From positions 1,053,540-1,117,539 of the forward strand of contig CP053449.1 in the NCBI GenBank assembly GCA_013285465.1: a DNA stretch of 64,000 nucleotides, in the 5' to 3' direction. Position numbers and translations under genes: made by a program. The first letter of the stretch is position 1. Each line of letters opens with the position of its first letter. Source of the DNA: Pseudomonadota bacterium (GTDB lineage Bacteria > Pseudomonadota > Alphaproteobacteria > Micavibrionales > CSBR16-224). Shown piece after piece: positions 5,889-39,236 of the stretch. Under the pieces are notes generated by a model. That model was not told the origin of the DNA. It was given only the letters and a program-made list of their open reading frames with translations, and searched no databases.

Positions 5889-5910
5889 CTGTTAAAAAAT
5901 ATTTTAACAG
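5889..5910. promoter_or_regulatory. Operator 2, perfect palindrome
   Basis: Perfect 9-bp arms, CTGTTAAAA and TTTTAACAG, around a 4-base centre. It lies 9 bases downstream of the proposed -10, at the expected transcription start. An AGGAGGT ribosome binding site at 5931-5937 follows, serving the ATG at 5947. Confidence 0.65.
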
Positions 5911-5946
5911 AAGTGCAAATCAAAAAAGATAGGAGGTACTTATATC

Positions 5947-6120: not shown

Positions 6121-6136
6121 TACGGCTAATGGGGTT

Positions 6137-6286: not shown

Positions 6287-6301
6287 ACGGAGTAAGGTAA
6301 A

Positions 6302-9298: not shown

Positions 9299-9390
9299 CA
9301 AATAAAGTGCTTGCGCTGTTTGAGTTGGGTTGAGCAGTTTATTTTATATTCATGGTATTGAATAAATGTTTTAGCCTAGACATTGAGCAA

Positions 9391-10518: not shown

Positions 10519-10566
10519 ATGAGCCCTTTATGTAATTGTTGTGAATTGTATTGAATTGAATGACAG

Positions 10567-12057: not shown

Positions 12058-12397
12058 ACTTGAAGCTCCTAATTAAGAACGCATTTTATAAATTTAAAGT
12101 TTTATAATTGTCATTATATACAATTAAGGATTAAATTCTTCAAGGATAAGGTAGCATTTGAAACAGAAGATACAAACCGCATGTCTACTCTAAAGAGCTG
12201 GATGAAAACATACTTGTTGGATAGATGGTCGGTGAAAAACTAGTATCATGAAGTACAGAAATTACACACTTTATTACACATGTTCAAAAAAATATAAAAT
12301 AAAACATTTTATATCAATAATATAATAGTAGACGCAACGGACTTAAAATGTGCTGCATCTAAGTGTGTTTAAAAGCTCAAGAATTTTTGGTAGGAAT
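12058..12397. other. 340-base AT-rich gap with integration-type repeat
   Basis: No gene is visible. The left half should hold the promoter of the leftward PhoD-like gene. The right half holds the repeat at 12260-12375 described separately. Base composition is strongly AT-rich. Confidence 0.5.
12260..12375 (+). repeat. Diverged repeat A with tRNA-Leu-like core (attachment-site remnant)
   Basis: This stretch resembles 18435-18530. Both start with a TTACACA..TTT.TTA arm-like motif and continue through AAAATAAAACAT and ATATCAAT. Both reach the shared 15-mer GCAACGGACTTAAAA and then TG.GCTG. Here the core is preceded by TAGAC, so TAGACGCAACGGACTTAAAA reads like the D-loop-to-anticodon-loop part of a tRNA-Leu(UAA) and stops exactly after the anticodon loop. 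Arm motif plus tRNA core about 60 bases later is what a tyrosine-integrase att site looks like. It probably marks an old element boundary. Confidence 0.5.
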
Positions 12398-12595
12398 TTA
12401 AGATAGGGTGCGCGAATGCGTAATAATTGATTGCACGTTTTCCCAGAAACTTGCGGTGTTCTGGTCGCCTGCAACGTCTGCTTTGGAAGCCCTAAAAAGC
12501 GCGATTTCTTCTGCGCGTGTTTCGTAAATGGAAAGTAGGACAGTCGCCGCCTCATCAGGCGTGGAGACTTGCCATATATTAGCATTTTCTATCAT
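12398..12595 (-). CDS. Small conserved hypothetical protein
   Basis: A 65-residue protein starting MIENANIWQVSTPDEA. The pattern IW....A..LL..Y...A...A..RA....GD......W..V...I matches a family of small alphaproteobacterial proteins of unknown function, often found near mobile or regulatory genes, that I recall but cannot name. It is acidic and helical, with no signal peptide. An upstream TTG start at 12607 is possible; the ATG at 12595 is simpler. It is divergent from luxR with a 225-base gap, so both share that regulatory space. Confidence 0.55.
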   Translation of the reverse strand: MIENANIWQVSTPDEAATVLLSIYETRAEEIALFRASKADVAGDQNTASFWENVQSIITHSRTLS

Positions 12596-12771
12596 GTTTC
12601 TGGCCAATAATTTTATTAATAGTAGTTATACCAGTGTTGAGTATTGAATATATCGTAATATATATTTTCTACAATGCCCATTCGCGTAGATTTACCGATA
12701 AGTGATACTCTATTTGATTGCTTATAGTGTTGTCAGAGGTTTTACTGTCGTTTTTATTGTTATGGAATTTG

Positions 12772-12780
12772 TGTTATAAT
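12772..12780 (+). promoter_or_regulatory. Extended -10 promoter of luxR
   Basis: TG-T-TATAAT forms a consensus extended -10 element with TATAAT at 12775-12780, about 40 bases before the luxR start. No good -35 hexamer stands 16-18 bases upstream, which fits an extended -10 promoter or one needing an activator. Confidence 0.5.
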
Positions 12781-12820
12781 ATCTGCTAGTTATTATTTTA
12801 TTTATTAAAGTTCTGAGTAA

Positions 12821-13564
12821 ATGAAAAAACTCGAACAATATATTGAGCTAATCAACAATGCAGAAACACCTGAAAAGGCGTTTGAACGCTTCTGCTCGAT
12901 TATGCAAGGTTATGGGTATGATCGTATTACTTACAGTCTGGTAACTGATCACCCTTCTTTGGGGCTTCCAAAGCAGCATGGACTGGCGACGAGTTATCCA
13001 GAAGATTGGATGAAGCATTATAACGATAAAAATTATATGGGTGTTGATCCGGTTGTAAAACAGGTGATGACGTCACGTAAACCATTTTTCTGGGATGACC
13101 TGATCAAAGGGCCAGATATTGCCAAGCCTGCAACCGTTTTTATGCATGAGGCATCGGATGCAGGTGTAGGAGATGGAATAGGTATTCCTTTATGTGGCAT
13201 ATCCGGTGAGATTGTTGGAATTGGACTCGCTAGGAGCTCTGTTCCATCTTCTCCAGAACGAAATTTTGAATTTTTGGCTGAGGCATATCTTTTAAGTGTG
13301 TATTTTCATGAAACATTTAGGGATATGCTCTCGGAGCCATACAAGGTGAATCTGACAGGCCGAGAGCATGAAGTGCTCTCATGGGCGGCTGAAGGTAAGA
13401 CAGATGAAGAAATATCAATGCTGCTCTGTATAAGCAGCCATACTGTGCGCTTCCATTGGAAGAATATTTTTAAAAAGTTACAGGCGAACGGCCGCATATA
13501 TGCCGTAACAAAAGCTATTCGTTTGCAGCTGATCGTGCCACACACAATACGCTCCTCCTACTAG
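12821..13564 (+). CDS. LuxR-family quorum-sensing regulator
   Basis: A 247-residue transcription factor with two domains. Residues 5-165 form the autoinducer-binding domain (YGYDRITYSLVTD, YPEDWMKHYNDKNY, DPVVKQ, and GIGIPLCGISGEIVGIGLA). Residues 180-240 form the LuxR HTH (LTGREHEVLSWAAEGKTDEEISMLL then SSHTVRFHWKNIFKKL). It should bind an N-acyl-homoserine lactone made by the LuxI-type enzyme encoded directly downstream. The W and D of YPEDW and NY..VDPV are the usual lactone-contact positions. It is on an island next to transfer-related genes, like TraR-TraI of conjugative elements. Confidence 0.9.
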   Translation: MKKLEQYIELINNAETPEKAFERFCSIMQGYGYDRITYSLVTDHPSLGLPKQHGLATSYPEDWMKHYNDKNYMGVDPVVKQVMTSRKPFFWDDLIKGPDIAKPATVFMHEASDAGVGDGIGIPLCGISGEIVGIGLARSSVPSSPERNFEFLAEAYLLSVYFHETFRDMLSEPYKVNLTGREHEVLSWAAEGKTDEEISMLLCISSHTVRFHWKNIFKKLQANGRIYAVTKAIRLQLIVPHTIRSSY

Positions 13565-13582
13565 ATATGGTAGTTATGCGAT

Positions 13583-13629
13583 CAATACAGTTGGTTTAGA
13601 CATGAATAATGATGTCTTAAACTGTATTG
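13583..13629. promoter_or_regulatory. Large inverted repeat between luxR and luxI
   Basis: Arms of about 20 bases (CAATACAGTT..TTTA.GACAT and its mirror ATGTCTTAAACTGTATTG) surround a centre of about 8 bases, with small mismatches near the middle. It ends 12 bases before the luxI ATG. It could be an RNA hairpin controlling luxI translation, a partial terminator, or a LuxR-type operator longer than the usual 18-20-bp lux box. It has no following U-run. Confidence 0.6.
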
Positions 13630-13641
13630 AGAGTATGTTAG

Positions 13642-14343
13642 ATGGTTGCTTGCGTAAGTATTTCAAACATTCACTGTTTCAAAGAGAATCTTTTAACGGC
13701 GCAGTATCGGCTGCGTTACCGTGAGGTCATCCGAAAAGAAAAGTGGGATGATATCTATGTGTTGAAGGATATGGAATTCGACCAATACGACAACCCCGCT
13801 ACAGAATACTATATTGCAAGAAATGAAGCTGGTGATGTTGTTGGTGTAACACGCTCATATCCAACCACTATCCCTTACATGCTATCAGATAACTTTCGTT
13901 ATTTGTTCTCAGAAGGACTGCCACAGAATCACAAAATTTTAGAAGCTAGCAGATTGGTGCTGGATCGCTCTCTTCTTACCAAGGAAGAAAGAACCCCTGT
14001 TGTGGATAGGCTTCTGGTTGCTTACATGGAGCGGGGGCTACAGCGCGGCGTTGAAGGCTATGTAGGCTTTATGCTGCCTAAGATATGGGAGAACACTTTT
14101 TTGAGAGTTGGGTGGAAAGTGAAATGGCTTGGGCCTGAGAAAGAACTTGAGAATACAGGATACAAAGTGCGTGCAGGATATATGCCGGTAAATCCGATTA
14201 TGGAGCAAATTATCCGTGAAAAAACCGGGATATATGAAAGTGTTCTTAAATTTGGTGAGAGATATGCAGAAGAGATGAATGAACCTCTGCAATCTGCATA
14301 TTATTCTCAGTCTCAAGACAGCCTAGCTCTAAAGGTCGCGTAA
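13642..14343 (+). CDS. Acyl-homoserine lactone synthase (LuxI family)
   Basis: A 233-residue autoinducer synthase. LuxI hallmarks are present in order: RLRYREVIRKEKWDD (conserved Arg and Trp), the acid cluster MEFDQYDNP, the strand IARNEAGDVVGVTRSYPTT followed by PYMLSDNFRYLF, and ILEASRLVLDRS with the conserved Glu-x-x-Arg. These residues place S-adenosylmethionine and the acyl donor. The acyl chain cannot be predicted. It follows luxR by 77 bases and is one base from the next gene, so the three probably form one quorum-sensing unit. Confidence 0.9.
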   Translation: MVACVSISNIHCFKENLLTAQYRLRYREVIRKEKWDDIYVLKDMEFDQYDNPATEYYIARNEAGDVVGVTRSYPTTIPYMLSDNFRYLFSEGLPQNHKILEASRLVLDRSLLTKEERTPVVDRLLVAYMERGLQRGVEGYVGFMLPKIWENTFLRVGWKVKWLGPEKELENTGYKVRAGYMPVNPIMEQIIREKTGIYESVLKFGERYAEEMNEPLQSAYYSQSQDSLALKVA

Positions 14344-14344
14344 A

Positions 14345-14635
14345 ATGAAAAAACAAAAAATATGCATTCACGATTCTGTTATGAGCTCTTTATGCTTTCT
14401 TTATCAGGAGGCAGCCAGAGAGAATGCGCAGGAACTGGCCAGTATATTAGAAACGGCAGTGGAAGAGGTGCAGTTGCTTGACAGTAAGGCGACATATAGT
14501 AAAGAAACTACTGGCCTGTTAAAGCAATTTATAGTGCTGCGTGGCTTTCAAAAAATGAGCCAAGAGCAGAAAGAGTTGTTTATAAGGCAGGTTGAAGGAT
14601 TTGAGCAAAACGTCATCCATTGGGATTTTGCTTGA
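14345..14635 (+). CDS. Hypothetical protein coupled to luxI
   Basis: A 96-residue, all-helical, soluble protein (YQEAARENAQELASILETAVEEVQLLDSK; GLLKQFIVLRGFQKM). It starts one base after the luxI stop, so it is almost surely co-translated with it. No known motif. Small partners next to luxRI genes sometimes act as anti-activators (TraM-type) or as transfer-linked cargo. The short helical build would suit an anti-activator, but nothing in the sequence proves it. Confidence 0.65.
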   Translation: MKKQKICIHDSVMSSLCFLYQEAARENAQELASILETAVEEVQLLDSKATYSKETTGLLKQFIVLRGFQKMSQEQKELFIRQVEGFEQNVIHWDFA

Positions 14636-14689
14636 TAAGCACATTGTGCGCAGTTGTCGGCTAGGGCACGCTTATTGTTAAGAGGCGCG

Positions 14690-14932
14690 TTATGAATCCT
14701 CATAGCCATTAAAAAAGCAATCCACTGTTACGCCGAACATGCGAGACAGCTTGTAGAGATTTACGGCAGCAATACGGCTTCGTCCAGCTTCATATTTCTG
14801 AACTTGTTGATAGGTCATATCCAGCTCGGCGGCGAGGTGACGCTGTGTTAGCTCTGCAAGCTGACGAAACTTGCGAATGTTCTTGCCGATATGCGTGTCG
14901 ATCTCGTCTGGACTTCGTGTTGTTTTCTGCAT
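14690..14932 (-). CDS. XRE-family regulator (80 residues)
   Basis: A small repressor that is little more than a helix-turn-helix: IGKNIRKFRQLAELTQRHLA, then MTYQQVQKYEAGRSRIAA and LYKLSRMFGVTVDCFF. The QQVQKYE..R.RI pattern is typical of alphaproteobacterial phage/ICE-type regulators. It faces the luxI operon tail to tail and lies downstream of a second XRE gene on the same strand, whose HTH is clearly related. Short AT-rich dyads lie upstream, around 15008-15023. Confidence 0.82.
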   Translation of the reverse strand: MQKTTRSPDEIDTHIGKNIRKFRQLAELTQRHLAAELDMTYQQVQKYEAGRSRIAAVNLYKLSRMFGVTVDCFFNGYEDS

Positions 14933-15049
14933 GGTGTTTACGCGTATTTATATGATTTTTAAAATTTATAATAGTAATATTTTGCATGGGAATATGATGC
15001 ATTTCAAGCATATATTTGTATGCTGTGTTGCCTGAGAGGGGGGGGCTTG

Positions 15050-15448
15050 TTAGGGGTCGCCAACCATTTCTTTCATAATGCTGAGAATGTTTTGCTGCAA
15101 GTTGTTATCAAGCAGCTGGTAGTACATTGCAAGCTTCATCGTACTTTTATTTGTCAGCATTTCTTCCAGGCGTTGCTGCTGGGGCGTTGCTCTTGACTTC
15201 AGAGAGTTACCTTCAAAGCCATCAACGAAAAAATCAAAAGACACACCAAGAAGTTTCGCTATCCTATAAAGGCGGGAGACACTAATGCGGTTCGTGCCCT
15301 TCTCGTATTTTTGGATTTGTTGAAAGGTGATGCCAAGCTCGTTAGCAAGATCTGTCTGGGACATACCTGCAGAAGTGCGTACTTGTCGAAGCTTGTGACC
15401 GACATAAGTATCGATTCCTTCGGGACTGCGGGGGCGTGCTTTTGCCAT
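15050..15448 (-). CDS. XRE-family regulator (132 residues)
   Basis: A regulator starting MAKARPRSPEGIDTYVGHKL with an N-terminal HTH (MSQTDLANELGITFQQIQKYEKGTNRIS) and a C-terminal helical extension ending NNLQQNILSIMKEMVGDP. The ATG at 15448 is preferred; a TTG at 15481 would add 11 residues. It is paralogous to the 80-residue XRE protein just downstream, with the same RSP..IDT..G lead-in. This form is common on alphaproteobacterial islands and may control the quorum-sensing or ArdC neighbours. Confidence 0.82.
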   Translation of the reverse strand: MAKARPRSPEGIDTYVGHKLRQVRTSAGMSQTDLANELGITFQQIQKYEKGTNRISVSRLYRIAKLLGVSFDFFVDGFEGNSLKSRATPQQQRLEEMLTNKSTMKLAMYYQLLDNNLQQNILSIMKEMVGDP

Positions 15449-15908
15449 ATGGTTCACCCATTTTCTTTCTATTATTTGCAACAGATTAGCACGAAGAGTC
15501 TCTGTTGTTAACAGGTTTCGCGACTCATGTGGCTATACGCCGTGCAATTGTGTGTGCCGAATTTTTAGACATGGGCATCGCTGCGTAATCCTTGTCGCTA
15601 GCAATTTTTTGAATTGTTGTCACTTTGTCTTCCTCCTTTCTAAAGCTTGCCTATCGTCGCTGACCGGCGCGGTCGTCTCTTTTGTGGCTAACCTGACGGC
15701 ATGCGCCCTGCGGCGCAACGCTTTGCAGTCGGTTTCTTCCCCGGCTGCGCCTTCCTCGCGGGAAACAAGAAACAGCCCGCTTTTCGCGTCCTTCACTTTG
15801 TTGCGGCTCCTTTGGAGTGCGCCTTTGGCTTGGCCTGCCGTCTATCGGTTGCCATGAGACGGCCGCGGCGGTCGCGGCCAACAAACGCCAAGCAAAAGGA
15901 AGAAGACA
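15449..15908 (+). promoter_or_regulatory. 460-base GC-rich palindromic leader before ardC
   Basis: No gene is supported here. From about 15640 the sequence becomes markedly GC-richer than its flanks and holds three clean dyads. These are GACCG-GCG-CGGTC at 15662-15674, TGCGCC-CTGC-GGCGCA at 15702-15717, and GGCCGCG-5 bases-CGCGGCC at 15861-15879, about 30 bases before the ardC start. Anti-restriction genes of conjugative plasmids are often expressed from single-stranded hairpin promoters during entry, and this layout suits such a site or a single-strand initiation site. The AGGAAG ribosome binding site for ardC is at the end. Confidence 0.5.
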
Positions 15909-16802
15909 ATGACAAAACAACATTCAGATATTTACAGCCGGGTAACGCAGAACATCATCACCGCCATCGAGAAAGGCGCAGGCGACTGGCAAATGCCCTG
16001 GCACCAAGCCGGATCAGGGCTCAACCGTCCAAACAACATCAATACCGGCAATCACTATCGCGGCATCAATATCCTGAACCTCTGGGTTTCCGCACAAGCA
16101 CAAGGCTTCAGCACCGGAACATGGGGCACATACAAGCAATGGAAAGAGAAAGACTGCCAAGTCCGCAAAGGCGAAAAATCCTCTCTCGTCATCTTCTATA
16201 AGACAGACGAGATCGAAAACACCGATGGTGAGCTTGAAACACGCTATATCGCCAGAGCCTCATATGTCTTTAACGCCGATCAGGTCGATGGCTATGAAGC
16301 ACCGCCGGCACCCGTACCGGAAAATCCGGTCGAAATCCTCGATAATGTCGAGCAGTTCATCAAACACACCAATGCAACAATCAAGCATACCGGTAACAGT
16401 GCCTTTTACCGCCCGGCAGATGACAGTATCACCATGCCCGAGCAAAGCCGCTTTCTCGGCTCCAAGACCAGCACGGCAACAGAAGCCTATTACTCCACAC
16501 TGCTGCATGAACTCAGCCACTGGACAGGTGCCAAACACCGCCTCAATCGAGAGTTCGGTAAACGCTTCGGCGATAACGCCTATGCGGTGGAAGAGCTGGT
16601 TGCGGAACTGAGCGCCGCTTTCCTCTGTGCTGATCTTGGTATCACAGTAGAACCGCGACAAGACCATGCAGCATATCTTGAGAACTGGCTGACCGTGCTG
16701 AAAGCCGACAAGAAAGCGATCTTCACGGCCGCAAGTCAGGCGGCAAAGGCAGCAGACTTCCTGAAAGCGCTGCAACCTCAAGCGCAACAGGAGGCGGCTT
16801 AG
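15909..16802 (+). CDS. ardC: ArdC-like antirestriction protein (ssDNA-binding plus zincin)
   Basis: A 297-residue protein. The N-terminal ~130 residues match the ArdC single-stranded DNA-binding domain (SRVTQNIITAIEKGAGDWQMPWH; NHYRGINILNLW; TYKQWKEKDCQVRKGEKS). The C-terminal half is a zincin-like metallopeptidase domain with HExxH in LLHELSHWTGAKHR, followed by the acid-containing YAVEELVAELSAAFLC. ArdC family proteins protect incoming plasmid DNA from host restriction. Its place after a GC-rich palindromic leader and near mobilization genes supports early expression during transfer. Full length for the family. Confidence 0.88.
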   Translation: MTKQHSDIYSRVTQNIITAIEKGAGDWQMPWHQAGSGLNRPNNINTGNHYRGINILNLWVSAQAQGFSTGTWGTYKQWKEKDCQVRKGEKSSLVIFYKTDEIENTDGELETRYIARASYVFNADQVDGYEAPPAPVPENPVEILDNVEQFIKHTNATIKHTGNSAFYRPADDSITMPEQSRFLGSKTSTATEAYYSTLLHELSHWTGAKHRLNREFGKRFGDNAYAVEELVAELSAAFLCADLGITVEPRQDHAAYLENWLTVLKADKKAIFTAASQAAKAADFLKALQPQAQQEAA

Positions 16803-16842
16803 GCCTCCTCCATAATATTGCATGAAATTTAAATGAAAAAAC

Positions 16843-16871
16843 TTGCAAATATTGAAAAATTGTCATATACT
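16843..16871 (+). promoter_or_regulatory. Promoter of abiE operon
   Basis: TTGCAA at 16843-16848, a 17-base spacer, and TATACT at 16866-16871 (five of six). A GGAGA ribosome binding site at 16880-16884 precedes the ATG at 16891. The -10 is so close to the start codon that the leader must be very short. Confidence 0.55.
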
Positions 16872-16890
16872 AAAGATATGGAGACAAAAC

Positions 16891-17460
16891 ATGACGGCGC
16901 GTGTAAAAGAGCTTGAAAATCATCTGAAAGCGGGGCGGGTCTATCGCCGCGCTGATCTTGCGCATTGGTCAAATGCCGTTGACCGGCATGTACAGCTTTT
17001 GCAGAAAAAAGGCGTTTTAAAGAAACTCTCCGGCGGTTTGTATTATGTGCCGAAGAAAACGCCATTCGGCGACGCACCTGCCGATGAAGAAAAGCTGGTC
17101 GAGGCGTTTTTGCGCGATCACCGCTTTCTGGTTACGTCACCGAATGCCTATAACGCGCTGGGGCTGGGCACGACACAGCTTTATAATGAAACGGTCATTT
17201 ACAATCACAAACGCCACGGGCATTTCAAACTGGGCGGACGGATGTTTGATTTCCGGATGCGTCCGCGCTTTCCCGCAAAGCTGACGCAGGAGTTTCTGCT
17301 GGTCGATTTGGTCAACAATCTTGACCGGCTAGCTGAAGACCCGGACGCGCTTTTGCGACGCGTTACAGAAAAAGTGCGAGAGATGGATCAAAAAGCGCTC
17401 TTTTACGCCGTGCGGGAATATGGCACGATGAAGACACGCAAATTTTTTGAAACTCTCTGA
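16891..17460 (+). CDS. abiEi: AbiEi-type antitoxin (type IV TA)
   Basis: A 189-residue protein with an N-terminal winged helix (GRVYRRADLAHWSNAVDRHVQLLQKKGVLKKLSGGLYYVPKK) and a C-terminal antitoxin domain, the usual AbiEi layout. The start at 16891 is preferred over an upstream ATG at 16843 because the latter lies inside the promoter. AbiEi represses the operon and neutralises the nucleotidyltransferase toxin encoded 19 bases downstream. It belongs to the shorter DUF6088-like branch. Confidence 0.85.
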   Translation: MTARVKELENHLKAGRVYRRADLAHWSNAVDRHVQLLQKKGVLKKLSGGLYYVPKKTPFGDAPADEEKLVEAFLRDHRFLVTSPNAYNALGLGTTQLYNETVIYNHKRHGHFKLGGRMFDFRMRPRFPAKLTQEFLLVDLVNNLDRLAEDPDALLRRVTEKVREMDQKALFYAVREYGTMKTRKFFETL

Positions 17461-17479
17461 TCCGTAAAAGACACAGCAA

Positions 17480-18427
17480 ATGCCTCCATTACCCTATCTT
17501 CATCAGCATTCCGGTTTTCAGGAACTCATCCGCATTGTCGCGGAAGAGCAGGGGATTGATCCGGTGCTGGTCGAAAAAGACTACTGGATCATGCATTGCC
17601 TTTACGGATTGCAAGGGGCGGGTTTTCAATTTGAACTCAAGGGCGGCACCTCGCTTTCCAAAGGTTACGGCATTATCGACCGGTTTTCAGAGGATATTGA
17701 TATCCGCATTGCGCCACCGGACGGTATGGAGGTCAAAACAGGACGCAACCACGATAAACCTGCACATATCGAAAGCCGGAAGCTTTTTTATGACTGGCTG
17801 GCCGATCATATAAAAATCGACGGTATTGTCTCTGTCAGCCGTGACCACGAGTTCGATGATGAGAAATACCGCAGCGGTGGTGTGAGACTGCATTACGAAA
17901 GCGCCTTTGCAGTTTTGCCGGGATTGAAAGAAGGGATATTGCTGGAGCTTGGCTTTGACGCTGTTGCGCCAAACCGGGAGGTAGATATCAGTTCATGGGT
18001 ATATGATTTTGCGGCAGGAAAAGTCGAGATTATTGATAACAGAGCAAAGCGCGTCAAATGCTATCATCCCGGCTATACGCTGGTTGAAAAGCTGCAAACG
18101 ATTTCAACAAAATTCAGAAAACAGCAGGAGGCGGAAGAATTCTCAAAGAATTTCCTGCGTCATTATTACGATGTTTACTGCCTTTTGCAGCAATCTGACG
18201 TTCAGTCCTTTATAGGCACAGAAGACTATATCGCACATAAGGTAAAGCGTTTTCCGGCAGCGGATAACCAAGTCATTTCCGAAAATGAAGCATTTCTGCT
18301 CTCTGATCCTGCAACACGGAGCCTGTATGAGACGGAATATCGCAAAACAGCCTCCCTTTATTACAAAGGGCAGGTGACGTTTGAGACAATTTTGCAGGAA
18401 ATCAGTAAGTGGAAGGGCAGGCTTTGA
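17480..18427 (+). CDS. abiEii: AbiEii-type nucleotidyltransferase toxin
   Basis: A 315-residue nucleotidyltransferase of the AbiEii family. Signature blocks are LVEKDYWIMHCLYG, the GGTSLSKGYG phosphate loop (FELKGGTSLSKG), SEDIDIRI with the two catalytic aspartates, and the basic KCYHPGYTLVEKLQTISTK block that closes the active site. Toxins of this family add nucleotides to tRNA 3' ends or otherwise block translation, causing abortive infection or stabilising mobile elements. It is the last gene before a repeat-rich attachment region. Confidence 0.9.
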   Translation: MPPLPYLHQHSGFQELIRIVAEEQGIDPVLVEKDYWIMHCLYGLQGAGFQFELKGGTSLSKGYGIIDRFSEDIDIRIAPPDGMEVKTGRNHDKPAHIESRKLFYDWLADHIKIDGIVSVSRDHEFDDEKYRSGGVRLHYESAFAVLPGLKEGILLELGFDAVAPNREVDISSWVYDFAAGKVEIIDNRAKRVKCYHPGYTLVEKLQTISTKFRKQQEAEEFSKNFLRHYYDVYCLLQQSDVQSFIGTEDYIAHKVKRFPAADNQVISENEAFLLSDPATRSLYETEYRKTASLYYKGQVTFETILQEISKWKGRL

Positions 18428-25539: not shown

Positions 25540-25932
25540 ATGGAAAACGTACGGGCGTATCATGGCATTATAGAGCATTTAAAACAGCAAAAAGATCATC
25601 TGGGGATGAATATTTCTGTGTTGTCTGAACGCAGTGGTGTATCGGAGCCGACCGTGCAAAGAATTTTGTCCGGCAAGCATCCGTCTGCCCATTTTGCGCA
25701 TGTTCTGGCGATTGCGCAAGCGCTTGGCGTTGATCTGAATGCAAGAATTGCTATTGATGCAGAAACAATGCGCCGTGAGCAAGCTAAGATGAAGGCCGAG
25801 ACAATCATGAGGCTCGTGCGAGGTAACTCTGCGCTGGAGGGGCAGGGGCTTAGCCCTGCTGCATATCAAAATATGCTGCATAAAACCATCAATGAGCTCC
25901 TAAGCGGTTCGAAACAGGCATTGTGGGGCTGA
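25540..25932 (+). CDS. XRE-type antitoxin partner of Fic
   Basis: A 130-residue protein with an N-terminal HTH (MNISVLSERSGVSEPTVQRILSGKHPS) and a C-terminal helix block (KMKAETIMRLVRGNSALEGQGLSPAAYQ). This block recurs in small regulators encoded just before Fic/DOC proteins (the so-called mobile mystery A/B pairs). It should bind the two palindromes upstream and neutralise or regulate the Fic protein. Its gene ends six bases before the preferred Fic start. Confidence 0.8.
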   Translation: MENVRAYHGIIEHLKQQKDHLGMNISVLSERSGVSEPTVQRILSGKHPSAHFAHVLAIAQALGVDLNARIAIDAETMRREQAKMKAETIMRLVRGNSALEGQGLSPAAYQNMLHKTINELLSGSKQALWG

Positions 25933-25937
25933 CGGAT

Positions 25938-26537
25938 ATGGTGGAAGGTTGGACATTGCGCGAAGGCGAAACGCCTTATCCTGATTTGGATGGATTCAAG
26001 CATGCGAAGAGGTATCCGCAGCCGTCACGGGATCTTGTTGACGAAATGGAGGAGGAGAATGTTCGCAAGGCAACATTGAAATATCTTGCTGCTACACCGT
26101 CAGTTAAAAAGGCACCATTCACGTTTGAGTGGCTGCTTCGCCTGCATCGTGAAATGTACGGGGATGTCTGGGATTGGGCTGGGCAAACACGCACCCAGAA
26201 TACGCAGATCGGTGTTGATAAACACCAGATTGTACCGGATCTGGCGGCGCTTGTGCATGATCTGCAAGAATGGCCAAAGTATTTTGACCCGATTGAAACC
26301 GCTGCCCGGCTACATCATAAAGCCGTACAGATTCATCCGTTCAAAAATGGGAACGGACGTTGGTCACGCTTGCTGGCAAATATCTGGCTGAAACAGCAGG
26401 GAATGCACCCGACGGAATGGCCGAGCATAACCGGTGAAAGCCCTATACGCGATGATTACTTAAAGGCCGTGCGGGCGGCGGATAGTCTTGATTATGAGCC
26501 GCTCATTGCTTTGCATCGAAAGTTTACAAAAGCATAG
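25938..26537 (+). CDS. Fic/DOC family protein (mobile mystery protein B-like)
   Basis: A 199-residue Fic protein with an intact active-site motif, HPFKNGNGRWSR, at residues 133-144: the catalytic His and the Gly-x-Gly-Arg anion hole are all present, so AMP or another phosphate-containing group could be transferred to a target hydroxyl. The upstream block FTFEWLLRLHREMYGDVWDWAG and TQIGVDKHQI is typical of the mobile mystery B branch. The ATG at 25938 is preferred to a GTG at 25923. I see no clear inhibitory S/TxxxEG/N helix, so control probably comes from the XRE partner. Confidence 0.85.
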   Translation: MVEGWTLREGETPYPDLDGFKHAKRYPQPSRDLVDEMEEENVRKATLKYLAATPSVKKAPFTFEWLLRLHREMYGDVWDWAGQTRTQNTQIGVDKHQIVPDLAALVHDLQEWPKYFDPIETAARLHHKAVQIHPFKNGNGRWSRLLANIWLKQQGMHPTEWPSITGESPIRDDYLKAVRAADSLDYEPLIALHRKFTKA

Positions 26538-28522: not shown

Positions 28523-31500
28523 ATGTTGAAAAAAAGCGCGGTCTTTTTTTGTACGATTGTTATCATTTTATTTTGTGGTGGTACGGCAAAAGCTGACCCT
28601 TCTCAGTGTCCTACCCCTAGCTTAAACCATATGCTGTCATCCTATGACCAGATTTTTCAGGCGGAAGTGCAGGAAGTCAAATCACGCCCGTTGCAATCAT
28701 ATATTCCGGTGTTGTTCGATGGGCCTGATTTTATAATGACGCTCAAGATCGTAGAGAGATATAAGGGTAAATCTGCTATTCCTGAGACATTCTATTATTA
28801 TGGCCGCCATGATCATTCTGATAGGCGGCATTTTGTAAAGAATCGCTCTTATGTGTTTTTCCTGCACAATAAGGATATATCGGAGCAGGTCATAAACCTC
28901 TGTACACCTGTGCGCCCGCTTCTTGCGAATAACGAAGCGACCACAAAAACTGTGGAGCGCTTAAGGGAGTACGTGCAGAAAACGCGTGCCCGGGAAGGGC
29001 TGCTTCTTTATCAGGAAAAGCTGCTTGTGAACAGATATGAGAGTGACCTGCGCGCTGTTCAAGAAATTTTGCAGTTTACTGTTGGGAAAGAGCGGAGAGC
29101 GGAAAAGCTACAGCCATATCAAAACACGGAAAAGTGTGACGGTATATATAGTGTAACAGCGGATATGCCGTATTTTCTCAAAGAGTTCCCGGACTTGCCG
29201 GAAAAAGGACTGTATTTATCAGAAAGACAGGAAGTATCAGAATACGGAACGAGCTTGTATAAGCTTGGTCGTTATCGGGAGGCATTAAGGCCGCTTTGCT
29301 TGACGAAGGATTTAGCCCCAGTGAATGCTTTTCAGCTCGCCATTGCGACATATCGTACCTATCCAAATCAGTTCTTATCTTTTGAAAAAATAGCAGCAAA
29401 AAATATTACTTTAACCGATGAAAATCTAGATGGCACCACACTGCGCATGATCGATTTAAGCAATGCAGAGATGGATACCGTCGCAATGGTGGGAGCAAAT
29501 TTTTCGGAAGCGTTGTTTACCAAGGCGCGACTGAAAAATATTAATGCTGAAAAAGCAAATTTTGAAAAAGCAAATTTTGTAGAAGCTTGGGTGTCTGGTA
29601 ATTTACGCAAGGTAAATTTTGCGCAAGCAAATTTAAGACATGCCGATTTTAGCCAAGCAGATATTTCTCATGCAAATTTTCAAGGGGCAGATATACGCGG
29701 TGTCGATTTTGGTGCTGATCCGGAGAAGATGAAAGAGATCAATCTTGATCAGGCAATTTTCGATGACACGACACTCTGGCCTGTCGGGGTTTCTCCGCAA
29801 ATGCAAAATATCGTCTATAAGGCATACAGCACAAATGACCTTACCGATCGGGAGGAAAATAAATATTCTATAAAGCACGATACCAGTGAAGAACTGTATA
29901 CAACCGATCAAAAAGAGCAATATTTTCCCGCGCAGGGAAGGCTTGTATTGGATGGAAGCGCAAATCACCGGCTTCGCAAAGCGACCCTGAATAATAATCA
30001 GTTTAATTTAATCGAGCTTCATCAGGGCGCTTTTCGAAACGGTTTGAAGAGGCATGATGTCTCTGTTGCCGGCGATGAAAATCTGGATGTGGTACGTCTT
30101 GATGGCTGTTTGGCGTGGGAAACAGCAAAACGCCAGGGGAGGTATTTCGAACACTCAAAATCTGTCACGAGCTTTTGGTATTATGTCACAAAAGAGCGAC
30201 CGCTTATTGAGTATACAACAAGTCCTGCCAGTGGAAATCCGTTAAAGGCCTATCTGCAAAAGGGCTTGAAGATATCTTTTACGGAAACATGTAAGCAAGA
30301 AGAGCCGTCAGGGTTGGACGCTCCGGTTGCGATGGATGAAGGAAAGGGCACGCAGACGCAGGAAAAATTAAGTGGTGATTTGAAGGCGTTGCAAGCTAAG
30401 ATAAGGTCTCTTGAGAAAAAATGGGCCGCAAAAAGAAGGCATACACCGGATTTTATTCCATCACCGCCTTGGCCATCCGGCACAAAAGACTGCCCACAGG
30501 GTGATTTGGTTTTTGCCGAGGCGGGGCGTTATACGCTCGATATTCCTAAGGGCTGTCGCCGTATTCTTGTCAAAGCATGGGGAGCGGGTGGCGGAGGCCG
30601 CAAGGGTGGTACTGGCGGCTTTACGATGGGAATCGTTGATATTCCTGAGAATGCCGCTGTAGACGTGATTGTCGGCGGAGCGGGAGGTGCTGCAAAGCCG
30701 AGAAAACTTGAGGCTCCCGGGGGATTTAATGGTGGCGGTGCAGGTGGAGATGGACGTCCCGGTGGCACGCAGGCCCTCATGGCAGGCGGTGGCGGTAGAA
30801 GTGAAGTATTGGTCAATGACACTGTTGCTTTGATTGCAGGCGGCGGCGGCGGTGGCGCTGAGCTCTATGGTTATCCCGGTGGCGGACGCGTACCGGCAGA
30901 ATTGAATACACATCTTGCCAGAGAATTGGATGATCAAATACCCAAAAATTCTCCTAACCGTTCCGGCGGGTTTGGTCGCGGAGGGCAGGCTGCAATAGAT
31001 GAAACGCTTCCTGAAAACTGCCTGCCTCCGGAAAATGGCGGAGAGAAGAGTGGTGGTAGCGGCGCATCCGGTGGAGATAAATGTCCCTTCTTTGCCGGAT
31101 CCGGCGGCGGTGCGGGTTACGGCGGAGGAAGCGGAGGCGCTCATATGCGTCCGGGCAGCAATCGGGCCGGTGGCGGTGGTGGAGGGCTTGCGCCGGAATA
31201 TGGTATCACTGTGTGGGGAGGGTTCCAGTTTCATGTGCCGCCGAACAGGCTTGATTTACAATATATCAGTCAAGCAGGCAGTGCCAATAATGACGGAATG
31301 ATAGCCGTTGTTTGGCCTGCGCCGGATCCGGAGAGTTTTTTGCGTTATGCAGTTTCTTCTATGCGTGTTCGAGACAACGGAACAAGGAAAAAGATTTGGC
31401 AGGTTTCTCACTCTGCCTCAGAGATAAACGGGCAGACTTCTCAGAAAATAAAAAATTATGCACCTAATGATGCGGTAAATATCGAATTTTACGAGAAATT

Positions 31501-32530
31501 CGATATTTCCCATTTCTCTGAATATAGTGCGCCTGAGCTTTCAGAGAGTCTGAAGTCTCTTATCAGCCTTATGAAGGCAGGAAAGCTGCCAACCGAGTTT
31601 CCACACTTCATTGATGCTGAGCGTTATCGCAATATTGCGCAGGACGGATTTGCGCTGGACAAGCTCGACTTGAATGGTAATAAATTTTACCCTGTGATGC
31701 ATGGGAATTTTGGTTGTTCCGTCTTTCAAAGCAAAGATCGACCTAATACCCTTTTTGCCCCCAAAGAAAATAATTTTTCCCGGCTTGACTGCTCAAGAGG
31801 TGTCACGAATATATTTTTGTTCGCGGGGATGGAAAACAGTCTGAAAAGTCAAGGTGGAACAAATTTGATTTTTATATCAAACGGCAACACAACGCTTGAG
31901 CTACCGTCTAGCCAAGACATTCTCATTTTTGACAAGGGGTTTGGCGATACGACCATCAAGAAAGCCTGTCTGCTATCTCCATTCAGAAATGCACCACTTT
32001 ATGCAACACCGCCAATCAGAATCTTTGGAGGAACTGGTATGGTGTTTCGCGCGGGTGAGAAAGGTCAGCAATACCCTGTTGTTCTGCAAGTTATAAAAGA
32101 TAAGCCTGCCGCGCATGCCGGGCTTATGGCGGGGGATGAAATTGTGGCGGTGAATGGGTTGGCGACAATAGGAAAATCAGCGCAAGAGGTGCGTAGCATG
32201 ATTGTTGGCCCACCAGGAGAGAAGGTGGAGTTTACTTTAATTCGTGAGAAGCTGGCTAGCCCTAGAGTTGTGACACTAACACGTGAGGAAATCACGCTTG
32301 CTCCGGATAGGCGTGATCTAAAAGAAATTGATTACCGTTATCCTTATGAATGGCCGGACTTTATTGTTTTCGGGAAAGGGATTTCTCCAGAAGATATGGA
32401 ATGGAGAGGGAGTGCACTCGTGCACAGAGAGGCAGGGCACAGTATCACTTTTAGTGAAGGGCCCTGCTTTAATTTTGTTTTCACTGAAGAGGGTGAGTTT
32501 GCCCTACCATCTGATGATGCGTCAGATTAA
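28523..32530 (+). CDS. Giant secreted multidomain protein (NTR-like, pentapeptide, Gly-rich, PDZ)
   Basis: A 1,335-residue secreted protein. A signal peptide (MLKKSAVFFCTIVIILFCGGTAKA) is followed by an NTR/TIMP-like segment with QIFQAEVQEVKS and IVERYKGKS (about 25-140). Pentapeptide-type A-x-F/L repeats follow (about 295-420: ANFEKANFVEA, ADFSQADISHANFQGADI). A charged linker leads to a long glycine-rich region (about 685-900) with many GG and GGG runs. A PDZ domain is near the C-terminus (about 1185-1265: DKPAAHAGLMAGDEIVAVNG). The start at 28523 follows GGCGGA. I know no family with this order. It may be an envelope adhesin or scaffold. Confidence 0.8.
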   Translation: MLKKSAVFFCTIVIILFCGGTAKADPSQCPTPSLNHMLSSYDQIFQAEVQEVKSRPLQSYIPVLFDGPDFIMTLKIVERYKGKSAIPETFYYYGRHDHSDRRHFVKNRSYVFFLHNKDISEQVINLCTPVRPLLANNEATTKTVERLREYVQKTRAREGLLLYQEKLLVNRYESDLRAVQEILQFTVGKERRAEKLQPYQNTEKCDGIYSVTADMPYFLKEFPDLPEKGLYLSERQEVSEYGTSLYKLGRYREALRPLCLTKDLAPVNAFQLAIATYRTYPNQFLSFEKIAAKNITLTDENLDGTTLRMIDLSNAEMDTVAMVGANFSEALFTKARLKNINAEKANFEKANFVEAWVSGNLRKVNFAQANLRHADFSQADISHANFQGADIRGVDFGADPEKMKEINLDQAIFDDTTLWPVGVSPQMQNIVYKAYSTNDLTDREENKYSIKHDTSEELYTTDQKEQYFPAQGRLVLDGSANHRLRKATLNNNQFNLIELHQGAFRNGLKRHDVSVAGDENLDVVRLDGCLAWETAKRQGRYFEHSKSVTSFWYYVTKERPLIEYTTSPASGNPLKAYLQKGLKISFTETCKQEEPSGLDAPVAMDEGKGTQTQEKLSGDLKALQAKIRSLEKKWAAKRRHTPDFIPSPPWPSGTKDCPQGDLVFAEAGRYTLDIPKGCRRILVKAWGAGGGGRKGGTGGFTMGIVDIPENAAVDVIVGGAGGAAKPRKLEAPGGFNGGGAGGDGRPGGTQALMAGGGGRSEVLVNDTVALIAGGGGGGAELYGYPGGGRVPAELNTHLARELDDQIPKNSPNRSGGFGRGGQAAIDETLPENCLPPENGGEKSGGSGASGGDKCPFFAGSGGGAGYGGGSGGAHMRPGSNRAGGGGGGLAPEYGITVWGGFQFHVPPNRLDLQYISQAGSANNDGMIAVVWPAPDPESFLRYAVSSMRVRDNGTRKKIWQVSHSASEINGQTSQKIKNYAPNDAVNIEFYEKFDISHFSEYSAPELSESLKSLISLMKAGKLPTEFPHFIDAERYRNIAQDGFALDKLDLNGNKFYPVMHGNFGCSVFQSKDRPNTLFAPKENNFSRLDCSRGVTNIFLFAGMENSLKSQGGTNLIFISNGNTTLELPSSQDILIFDKGFGDTTIKKACLLSPFRNAPLYATPPIRIFGGTGMVFRAGEKGQQYPVVLQVIKDKPAAHAGLMAGDEIVAVNGLATIGKSAQEVRSMIVGPPGEKVEFTLIREKLASPRVVTLTREEITLAPDRRDLKEIDYRYPYEWPDFIVFGKGISPEDMEWRGSALVHREAGHSITFSEGPCFNFVFTEEGEFALPSDDASD

Positions 32531-32833: not shown

Positions 32834-35596
32834 TTACGGCGCGTTATTGCCCGCTTGCTGAGTGATGAGATGATACGCACCCGCTTTTACGGTTACGCGT
32901 TCCGGTTTTTTATTGCCGCACCAGAATATATCGAGTGTCGCTGTTTCCGCCTGATCTGTCAGGGCGAAAGTGATGCGCGGGTCATGTTGGGACGATAGCC
33001 CGTTTGACGCATAGAGGCGTTTTTCCTGCTTATTATCAGCTTGCTGCAGCACTGCGCGCGTGCCGAAGGCATTTGTTGCGCAGGATGTGCCGTTTCCTTT
33101 CAGCAGCAGCCCGACCCAATGCGGCGGTGCTGCAAGATCATTCCTGTAAAGGGAAGGGGGCGCGGTCATATGTGTCACCACAATATCCTTATCACCATCA
33201 TTGTCGAAATCCGCCGCGGCAATGGCACGGCTGTTTTCCGCTTTGCCCCAGCCGACCGCATCGGCAACATCAATAAAGCCGCGACCGCTGTTCAGAAAAA
33301 CACGTTTGGGGTCGCGCGGATAAAGACATTCCCCGCGCATATCCGGCCAGTTATCAATATAGCCATGTGTCGCGGGCGGGGAGGCTTCGATTTGAAACAG
33401 CTTATACACGTAATTTCCGCAGGCCGCCTGTGCAGTAGGCTCTGAAGGGCTGTCGTAATCGCTATCAAGCCAGCCGGCGGTTTGCAGAATGTCCATATCT
33501 CCGTCAAGATCAATATCGACAGTTGCCGCCCCCCAGGAAAATCTGTCCGGATTGATAATATTTTTGGCAAAGGCTTTGTTTTTGAAAGCTTGCGATTTGT
33601 TTGTTGTGATGCGGCCGTCATTCATCCAGAGCAGGGAGCCTTCCGGCAGCTCCGCTTTATGCATGTTGGAGACATAGATATCAAGAAAGCCGTTTTTGTC
33701 GGCATCCAAAAAAGAGGCGTTCATGCCGCGATAGGTATCCTGCCCGATCCCGTCTTTGAAATAGCTTTGTATCTGCGTAAAGCCGCGGCCTTCTTTGTTG
33801 AGATACAGCCGATCGGGTCCGGCGGTATTGGCAAAATAAATATCGTCCCAGCCGTCATTATTCACATCTCCTACGGCGATATCCAATGTCCATCTTTTCT
33901 CATCCTGAAAGCCCCATTCCTTGTTATCCAGCAGGCGGAATTTGCCGTCCGGTGCGGCAAGATAGATCATATTACTGCCGGCGTTTCTGGCATCATACGG
34001 GTTGCGGCGCATGACATTGAAGGGGCGGCGGTCACCTTCATAAGCGGCCTTCGGCAGTTGAAAGATGTTGAAATATTCCGGCGGGCTGTAATCGCCGTCT
34101 GATACGTAAAGCGGCAATGATCCGGCAAGGATTATATCCGGCAGACCGTCGCGGTTCAAATCGGCGACATTGGCCGCCGCGCTGTTGATATATGCCGTGA
34201 ACCCTGCGGCGGCGGAGACATCTTCAAAGGATAACTCTCCGGTTTCCTGCAGATTGTTTTTCAGCAGATAGGGATGTCCCCAGAAGACGGTCAGGAACAG
34301 ATCCTGATCACCGTCATTATCGTAATCCACCCACAACCCTTGCGTGGGCGATCCGTATTTGTCCGGAGATTGACGAAGATCATCCAGCGCGGGAAGGGGG
34401 AATTTCTTAAACTGGAAATCACCTTGATTCAGATAAAGATTGGCGCGGTCCTGCGGCGCTTTCAGCGGCTGTGTCAGAAAAAGATCGGGCAGGCCATCAT
34501 GATTGACATCCGCAACGGCGGCGGCATCACCCATGGCATAAAACCATTTTGCCAAATGCGCGATACGCGGGTCCGTCTGTTGCAGTAAGGGCGATGCCTC
34601 ACCGCTGATACCGGTATGTTGTGAGGGCAACGCGGTCAGCGTAAATCCCGGATGCGGCGGCAGTGCGACGGGGCGTATATAGTCAAAACCGCGGACGCCC
34701 AGCCATAGCAAAGCGAGACAGAGCGTGATCTCGCGCCATTTGTAAAATATCCGTTGATAGACAGGCGGCGATGCCTCAACAGACCGCAAAAAATGCAGCG
34801 ATAGGAAACGCGCCGTGAAATAGCTGAACCCGGCGTAGAATAACGTGAAGGTAAAATGCAGGGAATGAAAAATAAAATCGGCAGCGATAACCCACAGCGC
34901 CATAAAGACCTGCCCCTTTGCCGTATCGGGCGAGGTTCTGGGGTCAGTCAGCATAAAGAATGTAAACAGGTAAAAGGCCGGTGATTGCAGCACTCCCATC
35001 AACAGCATTGTTAAGGGAATATCGGCATCAATCGTAAAACCGCGCAGCAGAACCTGCAGGAAATATCCCGCCAGAAAGACAGCGGTAAGAATTTGGCGTT
35101 TGATATTGAAAAGAAAAAAGCTGGCTGCCATGAACAGGATCAGAATGCAGAAGGCCACCAGCCCGCCCCATTGTGAAACAGGGGCGGCGGCGATCATGCC
35201 GTCACTAAAGAGCAGACAGAGCGTCAGACCGAACAGTCCGGGATTAAAAATATGTTTCGATTGATATGTCAGCACATATTTTGAGGAAATCGCCAAAAAG
35301 ACCGGAACAGCCCCCAGCCATATTGTGTGCGGAAAATGCGTTAAAATTGACAGGCCCGTTCCCGTGATCGCCGCGCTGATCGGCAGCAGGAGACGGCTTG
35401 TCTCTTTGGTCATGTAATGAAAACACATATCAAGCAGGCATGAAAAACCGATCATAAAGGCAATCTGCTGCGGCGATTTGTCAAAGCCCAGAAAGAAAAT
35501 ACCAATCAGCAGAAATGCCAATAAGATAGCAAGCACGCGCAGACGCGGGTCTTGCGTGATGCCGGAGAAATATTTTTTTGTGCTGTCTGTGTCCAT
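32834..35596 (-). CDS. RnfD/NqrB-like membrane domain fused to FG-GAP/VCBS repeats and UnbV domain
   Basis: A 920-residue protein. Residues 20-305 hold about ten membrane helices with RnfD/NqrB-type landmarks (SSKYVLTYQSKHIFNPGLFGL; FFMLTDPRTSPDTAKGQ). From about 345 to 830 come Ca-binding-type FG-GAP/VCBS repeats: ADVNHDGLPDLFL, VDYDNDGDQDLFL, ADLNRDGLPDIIL, VDIDLDGDMDIL, ADFDNDGDKDIVV. A C-terminal UnbV/ASPIC domain covers roughly 835-915. The repeats are presumably periplasmic or extracellular. The flavin-binding S-G-A-T signature of true RnfD is not visible, so redox activity is doubtful. The gene follows the Lnt-like gene with a one-base gap. Confidence 0.85.
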   Translation of the reverse strand: MDTDSTKKYFSGITQDPRLRVLAILLAFLLIGIFFLGFDKSPQQIAFMIGFSCLLDMCFHYMTKETSRLLLPISAAITGTGLSILTHFPHTIWLGAVPVFLAISSKYVLTYQSKHIFNPGLFGLTLCLLFSDGMIAAAPVSQWGGLVAFCILILFMAASFFLFNIKRQILTAVFLAGYFLQVLLRGFTIDADIPLTMLLMGVLQSPAFYLFTFFMLTDPRTSPDTAKGQVFMALWVIAADFIFHSLHFTFTLFYAGFSYFTARFLSLHFLRSVEASPPVYQRIFYKWREITLCLALLWLGVRGFDYIRPVALPPHPGFTLTALPSQHTGISGEASPLLQQTDPRIAHLAKWFYAMGDAAAVADVNHDGLPDLFLTQPLKAPQDRANLYLNQGDFQFKKFPLPALDDLRQSPDKYGSPTQGLWVDYDNDGDQDLFLTVFWGHPYLLKNNLQETGELSFEDVSAAAGFTAYINSAAANVADLNRDGLPDIILAGSLPLYVSDGDYSPPEYFNIFQLPKAAYEGDRRPFNVMRRNPYDARNAGSNMIYLAAPDGKFRLLDNKEWGFQDEKRWTLDIAVGDVNNDGWDDIYFANTAGPDRLYLNKEGRGFTQIQSYFKDGIGQDTYRGMNASFLDADKNGFLDIYVSNMHKAELPEGSLLWMNDGRITTNKSQAFKNKAFAKNIINPDRFSWGAATVDIDLDGDMDILQTAGWLDSDYDSPSEPTAQAACGNYVYKLFQIEASPPATHGYIDNWPDMRGECLYPRDPKRVFLNSGRGFIDVADAVGWGKAENSRAIAAADFDNDGDKDIVVTHMTAPPSLYRNDLAAPPHWVGLLLKGNGTSCATNAFGTRAVLQQADNKQEKRLYASNGLSSQHDPRITFALTDQAETATLDIFWCGNKKPERVTVKAGAYHLITQQAGNNAP

Positions 35597-37195: not shown

Positions 37196-37744
37196 ATGAA
37201 TCGCGTTTTGCAATCCTATTCTGTGCTGAGACTGACGGCTGCAATTTATATTGTGCTTGGTTTTTCAGTGGCATTCGCCATCCCCGAGCTGCGGTTGACC
37301 GGTAATGTGGATATGGATTTCGGCACGGTGGAATATGCGGCGACGGCCACGGGCAGCATCGATATGGGAACCGATGGCAATATCACCTATAACGGCATGT
37401 TCTCGGGCCCCTCAATCGGAACATCCGGGCAATTCCGTATACGGGTGGCCGGCGGCGGAAATATCTCGCTTGGCTGTGATACCACGGCAACCCTGACATC
37501 CGGCGGCAACAGCGTCTCAATGGACAGTATCGAATTTGTGATCGGTTCCGGTAACAGGACATCTTTTGGCAACGGTACGCTTTGTCAGGGAATTGGCACG
37601 CCGATACAGCCCTTCACTTTGACGGATGAAATACTTTATATGGGGGGATCGCTGAATATTTCATCGCCTGTCCCCGCAAGCGGTACCTATTCGACCGGCA
37701 ACGGGGGCGGTAATGCCATTTCTTTTAGTGTGCTGGTTCTTTAA
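37196..37744 (+). CDS. DUF4402 secreted protein
   Basis: A 182-residue protein with a signal peptide (LRLTAAIYIVLGFSVAFA) and the DUF4402 hallmark VDMDFGTVEYA. Next comes a Gly/Ser/Thr-rich beta domain with DMGTDGNITYNGMFSG and two cysteines (LGCDTTATL; TLCQGIG) that should form a disulphide. DUF4402 proteins resemble pilin or spore-coat-type subunits that are handled by PapD-like chaperones. Divergent from lnt by 62 bases; the chaperone gene ends 11 bases beyond its stop on the other strand. Confidence 0.85.
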   Translation: MNRVLQSYSVLRLTAAIYIVLGFSVAFAIPELRLTGNVDMDFGTVEYAATATGSIDMGTDGNITYNGMFSGPSIGTSGQFRIRVAGGGNISLGCDTTATLTSGGNSVSMDSIEFVIGSGNRTSFGNGTLCQGIGTPIQPFTLTDEILYMGGSLNISSPVPASGTYSTGNGGGNAISFSVLVL

Positions 37745-37755
37745 AGAATAAGCGG

Positions 37756-38601
37756 TTATTTCAGGGGAAGCCTGATTTCCTGCGTATCGGTTTCGGCATC
37801 CGTCTGCAAACGCACGACAAGCTCCCCGCCGGAGAGTTGGTGGCCTTTTATAAGGGGGAGCGCGATTTTCCTCTCGACCATATCGACCTCATGGTACAGA
37901 CGCACCAATTGTTCCGCAATAATCGTCACCGGCTCTTGCCCCGGTATCACATGGGATACGGATAATTTTCCGGCGGCTTCGGCATTGCCGGTTCTTTGCA
38001 ATTTCGTGGACAGCCATGTTCCTGCGGCTGTTTTGGCAATATCCGCCGTCTTTAAAACGAGGCGGGAGGATAAAGTACCGTTCTGTACGACAATCGGCAC
38101 ACCGATGCCGTAAATCGTGTTGATGTCAAAATGCACGGCATTTCCCTGATTTTCCGGCAGGGCTTCCTGCTCTTTTTGGGGGGAGGGAATTTCACGGAAC
38201 AACAGATGTGTGTGATAATCACCATGCGGCAGATCTTTCGGGATTTGCGCCATCACGCGGACAGCCAGACGCTCATTCGGTTTTAACGTAAAGCGTTTGG
38301 GGGTGTAACGCAGAAAAGGTTCTGCCGAATAGTTAAAGTTATCAACGCGTTTGACATCGCCGTTTTCCGTCATCATATAGTTTTCGATTTTTACATCAAA
38401 GCGGGCGGTTTTGTTGGATTTATTCGTCAAGTTAATAAGCCGGGTGACAGGGCGTTCATCCTCTGCCGGGGGAAACTCGACACGTTCCGGGGCAATAAAC
38501 AGGATGCTAGTGTCAATTTGTCCGTAGGCATGGCGGGATGCCGCCATAAAGGCGGTGCATGCGAGAACGGCAATCACGATAAAATTATATAAAGGCTTCA
38601 T
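37756..38601 (-). CDS. PapD-like periplasmic pilus chaperone
   Basis: A 281-residue (from ATG 38601; 38619 is an alternative) secreted chaperone. A signal peptide (LYNFIVIAVLACTAFMAASRHAYG) precedes an immunoglobulin-like chaperone domain: ILFIAPERVEFPPAEDERPVTRLINLTN, PKRFTLKPNERLAVRV, and PKDLPHGDYHTHLLFRE. It should bind and donate a strand to DUF4402 subunits in the periplasm. It is downstream of, and co-directional with, one DUF4402 gene (29-base gap) and convergent with the other. No outer-membrane usher gene occurs in the window. Confidence 0.85.
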   Translation of the reverse strand: MKPLYNFIVIAVLACTAFMAASRHAYGQIDTSILFIAPERVEFPPAEDERPVTRLINLTNKSNKTARFDVKIENYMMTENGDVKRVDNFNYSAEPFLRYTPKRFTLKPNERLAVRVMAQIPKDLPHGDYHTHLLFREIPSPQKEQEALPENQGNAVHFDINTIYGIGVPIVVQNGTLSSRLVLKTADIAKTAAGTWLSTKLQRTGNAEAAGKLSVSHVIPGQEPVTIIAEQLVRLYHEVDMVERKIALPLIKGHQLSGGELVVRLQTDAETDTQEIRLPLK

Positions 38602-38630
38602 ATGAATATACCCAGTCATGCAGGCGCTTG

Positions 38631-39236
38631 TTATTGATAGATGATATCAACCCGGATATCATCGCCACCGGCATTGGCTGTGCTGAAATTTCCGCCGGTA
38701 AATGATGTGGCTGTTGCACCGTCAATGCGTCCGCCAAACACGAATGTATCAAGTGTGCCGATATTTAAAACGATACTGGCAGCGACACTTCCCATGCCGT
38801 TGCAGGCATTGCCGGAGCCAAAGGAGGTTTCGCTGCCCTCTGCGACGGTTTCAATACTTGTCACATTAATAGAGGCACCTGCACCATTTGTCATTGTGGC
38901 GCTTGCATCGCAAAAAACATTGACGGTCTGGCTGTTTGTGCCCGCTGTAATATCCACTTTTCCGGCTGTGCCTGTGCCGCTGCCGCTGAAGCCGCCGGTA
39001 TAGGAAATTAAACCATTTGTACCCATATTGACGGTGTCGCCGGCGCCGGGAGTGCCGGCAACAAAAATCGTGCCGAAATCCATATCGACTTCATTTCCGA
39101 GAGTCAGGACCTGACGGAATTCAACGCGGGCATCATTGCTTGTATTCAGCGCGTGAACCGTCACAGGGAAGGCCATTGCACAGAGAGCTGTTGCAAGAAT
39201 GAATCTTTTTTTATCGCCTAATGTTCTGCGGATCAT
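38631..39236 (-). CDS. DUF4402 secreted protein
   Basis: A 201-residue paralogue of the protein at 37196-37744. It has a signal peptide (RFILATALCAMAFPVTVHA), the signature EVDMDFGTIFVAG, NMGTNGLISYTGGFSG, two cysteines (VFCDASATM; NACNGMG) and a C-terminal beta strand (DDIRVDIIYQ). It is first in a two-gene unit with the chaperone. The last strand may be the one donated between subunits. A surface fibre or coat made of these two proteins is plausible. Confidence 0.87.
   Translation of the reverse strand: MIRRTLGDKKRFILATALCAMAFPVTVHALNTSNDARVEFRQVLTLGNEVDMDFGTIFVAGTPGAGDTVNMGTNGLISYTGGFSGSGTGTAGKVDITAGTNSQTVNVFCDASATMTNGAGASINVTSIETVAEGSETSFGSGNACNGMGSVAASIVLNIGTLDTFVFGGRIDGATATSFTGGNFSTANAGGDDIRVDIIYQ

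Follow-up and report, generated by a model that had tools for sequence, protein, structure and literature searches.

A gene on the forward strand of contig CP053449.1, at positions 28523-32530 of the 64,000-nucleotide stretch analysed here (the window), encodes a 1,335-aa exported protein in which known domains are combined into a new architecture, one that is conserved yet rare. Its parts are ordinary and their order is unusual; the surprising part is a predicted glycine-rich head of the kind seen in ALK and in phage tips. The gene is one intact open reading frame, with its ATG at 28523 and its stop at 32530, and it joins at least eight modules in a single chain: signal peptide, NTR, TPR-like segment, pentapeptides, D1, coiled coil, glycine-rich domain, RTX-like module with an inserted PDZ, and tail. 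A first-pass annotation had described an NTR-like segment, pentapeptide-type repeats, a glycine-rich region and a PDZ domain in one secreted chain of unfamiliar order. All four are present (by Pfam and the NTR fold model), the signal peptide agrees with export, and no named NCBIfam or Pfam family with the same domain order was matched, although 'giant' is a generous label for 1,335 residues. The TPR-like segment (residues 150-285), D1 (466-590), the coiled coil (619-635) and the RTX-like segment and tail, which the PDZ splits, had been missed. The features are as follows.

28523..28594 (+): Sec signal peptide, residues 1-24 (MLKKSAVFFCTIVIILFCGGTAKA, then DP), the lone hydrophobic stretch, with AKA at its end; cleavage site placed by eye
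28595..28942 (+): NTR (netrin/TIMP-like) domain, residues 25-140, by fold match of an AlphaFold model
28970..29377 (+): TPR-like helical segment, residues ~150-285, aligned in five relatives; boundaries approximate
29411..29767 (+): pentapeptide-repeat beta-helix, residues ~297-415 (PF00805, 1.7e-19; pentapeptide PDB chains)
29918..30292 (+): D1, an unnamed domain with a D-x-V-x-LDGCLxW motif, residues 466-590, from a seven-member alignment
30377..30427 (+): short coiled coil, residues 619-635, by inspection of the heptad pattern; also in the ortholog
30485..31327 (+): putative ALK/LTK-type glycine-rich domain (TNF-like sandwich plus glycine lattice), residues 655-935, from PF12810 in the ortholog and structural matches
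31775..31969 (+): degenerate RTX-like segment, residues 1085-1149, aligned with RTX-bearing relatives
32024..32293 (+): PDZ inserted into the RTX-like module, residues 1168-1257 (PF17820; carboxylate loop GGTGMVF)
32330..32497 (+): C-terminal tail FIVFGKGISPEDMEW...SITF...CFN, residues 1270-1325, conserved across eight proteins, some having a PDZ and others not

No transmembrane segment follows the signal peptide. Because all 14 cysteines of the mature chain are conserved in the ortholog described below, the protein probably resides in an oxidising compartment, outside the cytoplasm. Plausible disulfide pairs are C29-C127 (NTR), C205-C259 (TPR), C529-C590 (D1), C657-C678 and C833-C854 (both in the glycine-rich domain), and C1065-C1090 and C1149-C1315, which lie on either side of the PDZ.

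Conservation and recombination of the modules

We searched 142 genomes from the order and a sample of 385 from the class, and found one other carrier of the full chain: G122, an alphaproteobacterial MAG (bin FW300_bin.31; contig SCTB01000009.1) from a different family of the order. The ortholog is collinear from end to end, with 33% identity over 1,267 aligned positions and every mature-chain cysteine matched, so the architecture is far beyond chance; fusion of two genes by a sequencing error is ruled out on the same grounds. Identity differs by module, from 52% in the glycine-rich domain to 22% in the NTR and 19% in the RTX-like segment. The search for the domain order in other genomes that had been proposed with the first-pass annotation thus places it in just 2 of the 142 genomes; others carry recombined parts. 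A first contig scan for relatives found nothing, and a second, which used pentapeptide motifs as search patterns and is not exhaustive for domain order, reached the G122 ortholog, its remaining matches sharing mainly pentapeptides. In phage and plasmid records, pentapeptides were matched among the hits listed, and PHROGs gave weak matches (best, 1.3e-5), one of them to a minor tail protein. Micavibrio aeruginosavorus, a surface-attaching predator, belongs to the order of the window's host, which is from another family. Neither the Micavibrio genomes nor the two from the host's own genus yielded the gene, so it is not a general factor for predation.

The recombined parts are varied. NTR-TPR occurs alone as a 289-aa protein in the window's own genome. 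Five genomes of the order encode it with pentapeptides behind it, in proteins 450-1,443 aa long, and the NTR is joined to several kinds of solenoid in the order and the window. Proteins with a transmembrane helix, coiled coil, D1, RTX and PDZ are encoded in G063, G060, G127 and G124; G122 has an ankyrin protein with a glycine-rich domain and also, on the ortholog's strand, a transmembrane helix-coiled coil-D1 gene whose end is just a few bases ahead of the ortholog. A phylum-wide sample of 398 genomes gave nothing further with profiles of NTR-TPR and D1 at the thresholds used. By inspection, recombinase-like genes lie beside the ortholog (L046, 13778-14893 and 16921-18189) and beside an NTR-TPR-pentapeptide relative (L162, 2278-3642), which suggests island cargo.

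The window holds other genes of note. A mobile-element-like stretch with a relaxase (940-18424) includes a LuxR/LuxI quorum-sensing pair (12821-14340); a DncV-like CD-NTase gene (7437-8636) is followed by an unnamed gene, an arrangement like that of a CBASS-type locus. Just upstream of our gene, where the GC content is low, a helix-turn-helix gene overlaps a Fic-domain gene (25540-26537, +). Further along are an unusual chimera of an RnfD/NqrB-like membrane domain with FG-GAP and ASPIC/UnbV repeats (32834-35596, -), a PapD-like chaperone flanked by two DUF4402-type genes (37196-39236) and an exported protein with several EF hands (59633-60397, +). The last is only a weak match to the EF-hand gene that adjoins the ortholog, and it lies about 30 kb away.

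The N-terminal half and the C-terminal module

The NTR has no NTR/TIMP match in Pfam and was recognized by its predicted fold. An AlphaFold model of residues 25-152, built from a two-row alignment (pLDDT 66, pTM 0.63), matches the NTR of PCOLCE1 (4e-6), TIMP-2, TIMP-1, agrin NtA and the C345C of complement C3/C5; all listed matches are NTR domains or NTR-containing proteins, and comparison with solved NTR domains gives Z scores up to 11.9 over 116 residues. In contrast to TIMP, PCOLCE1 and C345C, this NTR has one predicted disulfide (C29-C127), has no C-x-C start and is joined to TPR and pentapeptides. Its profile also matches (hhalign 83%) that of another NTR protein encoded in the window and likewise secreted (55333-56709, +), in which a canonical CSC-type NTR domain precedes HEAT repeats. 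Relatives of the TPR-like segment match TPR models, and the pentapeptides score 69.4 bits against a PF00805 cut-off of 20.2. D1 has no PDB match and a single, insignificant Pfam match.

Relatives of the RTX-like segment match HemolysinCabind/RTX, whereas the C-terminal module of the window protein contains no GGxGxDxU repeats; one GxGNDxL calcium motif is kept in the ortholog and lost in the window copy. The tail (residues 1270-1325) presumably resembles haemolysin-type C-terminal segments. RTX proteins of M. aeruginosavorus, from the same order, are reported to carry type I signals and GGXGXD repeats (PMC3189940); the relatives of the window protein share an RTX-like C-terminal module with them, whereas the window protein itself has a signal peptide and has lost the repeats. 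The PDZ lies within this module (PDZ_6 at residues 1186-1241, 1.2e-10; PF17820, 41.4 bits against a cut-off of 27) and has GGTGMVF as its GxGphi loop. Because the modules of G039, G096 and G124 are otherwise collinear and have no PDZ, it is probably an insertion into an RTX-like unit, or was lost in these relatives. Its nearest PDB relatives are the PDZ domains of C-terminal processing proteases (S41); in the window protein the PDZ alone is matched, with no S41 protease domain in Pfam or NCBIfam searches of the chain.

The glycine-rich head

The glycine-rich region, previously put at ~200 residues, is indeed present and is longer, at ~280 residues (655-935), 75 of 281 being glycine. The ortholog matches ALK_LTK_GRD (PF12810) at 37.0 bits against a cut-off of 24.5 (E, 4.9e-9). 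For the window copy, Pfam gives only a sub-threshold match to PF21722 (Gly_rich_2) at residues 667-888 (20.6-22.1 bits against a cut-off of 24.3). The window model has low confidence (pLDDT 46, pTM 0.51), its N-terminal beta strands being fairly confident and its glycine runs not. With this model, the best 20 Foldseek matches are all ALK/LTK, and a second aligner (VIA) places ALK/LTK, the cyanophage Pam3 fibre and the Bxb1 tail tip at Z scores of 7.7-8.6, the next chain reaching 3.0. Relative to two other copies of the domain, the window glycines are kept at 84-87% and other residues at 25-36% (87% against 36%), and insertions and deletions sit between the glycine runs. From the weak window model and the family match in the ortholog, the region appears to be an ALK/LTK-type TNF-like plus glycine-lattice domain.

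An earlier guess of a polyglycine bundle fits this grouping with ALK/LTK and phage-tip glycine lattices, although the lattice itself is modelled without confidence. Silk-like or ice-binding low complexity, also raised before, is supported by no match, and the N-terminal beta-sandwich of the model and the position-specific glycines speak against it. PDB sequence matches to the glycine-rich profile (AMFR, KIF3C and RecA) were discarded as composition-type, and the domain found no match in phage records.

The likeness to the ALK/LTK glycine-rich (TG) domain (PDB 7lir and 7nx1) consists of predicted TNF-like strands and glycine runs, with a family match in the ortholog and a fold match in the weak window model; the window protein differs in being bacterial, in scoring under the Pfam cut-off and in having no kinase, EGF or MAM parts. 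In Pam3 gp24 (7ypx), a helical trimer stem, a TNF-like domain and a glycine lattice form the receptor-binding tip that recognizes the host, with conserved glycines and variable ends (PMC9608196). A comparable order is predicted here: a coiled coil (heptad residues L620, L623, I627, L630 and W634) stands on the N-terminal side of the glycine-rich domain in both orthologs, and the kept glycines with changes of length between runs fit the conserved stem and variable tip of gp24. Unlike Pam3 gp24 and the Bxb1 tail tip (9d93), the window protein is cell-encoded, has a Sec signal peptide and carries its predicted head mid-chain between other modules.

Candidate functions

We lean, somewhat short of even confidence, towards an exposed, disulfide-rich binding protein, the glycine-rich head of which binds a surface ligand while the PDZ tethers the C terminus of a partner. 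Going by its signal peptide, the protein would be exported by Sec. Docking and spacing would then fall to the NTR-TPR-pentapeptide half and to the RTX-like tail that the PDZ splits. A head like a fibre tip, as in Pam3 gp24 and ALK/LTK, would be made up of coiled coil, TNF-like sandwich and glycine lattice, and its variable loops may bind a ligand on another surface, be it a prey cell, a neighbouring cell or the cell's own envelope. The PDZ, in a C-terminal module stapled by the predicted C1149-C1315 disulfide, may grip the free C terminus of a partner protein. Exposure is suggested by the signal peptide with no other transmembrane segment and the conserved cysteines; binding is suggested by the ALK/LTK and phage-tip matches, the coiled coil ahead of them, the glycine pattern and a PDZ that stands without a protease domain, in an order that includes a surface-attaching predator. 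Against it count the lost RTX motif and the GspD matches under the cut-off, which give no sign of passage across the outer membrane, as well as the low-confidence head model, the window copy's sub-threshold Pfam scores and the gene not being found in Micavibrio.

The main rival, which we consider possible though doubtful, is a periplasmic scaffold, with NTR, TPR, pentapeptides and PDZ gathering envelope proteins and the head binding a periplasmic partner. It is favoured by the D1-RTX-PDZ relatives, which a transmembrane helix and coiled coil anchor at the N terminus, by the membrane-helix gene that adjoins the ortholog and by the nearness of the PDZ to those of periplasmic CTP proteases, but the glycine-rich fold is so far known from extracellular recognition parts. 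The NTR's resemblance to TIMPs could instead point to a secreted inhibitor or sequestrant of foreign proteases or toxins, acting through NTR and PDZ. This seems improbable, as only the RTX-like segment is less conserved among the folded parts than the NTR, which also matches C345C and PCOLCE1 and is paired with several solenoids in these genomes. Least probable of all would be that recent shuffling produced an accessory gene which serves no selected function as one unit and whose parts are the cargo of mobile islands. The gene's rarity, the low-GC stretch and the recombinase-like genes beside two relatives agree with this; against it, the copies in the two families are fully collinear and share every mature-chain cysteine at 33% identity.

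The exposed-binder reading extends to a broader picture, which we rate as rather unlikely in full: bacteria of the Micavibrio order may assemble exported adhesins from shuffled modules (NTR, TPR, pentapeptide, D1, RTX and PDZ), this one with a cell-encoded, phage-fibre-like head of ALK type that would recognize other cells and a PDZ that would clip it to an envelope partner. An exported bacterial protein of many domains would thus employ a recognition fold of phage tips and animal receptors, in an order that includes surface-attaching predators and the recognition proteins of which are poorly known. The set of shuffled modules, of which the unnamed D1 is one, is directly testable, and the relatives without a PDZ in their RTX-like module provide natural controls.
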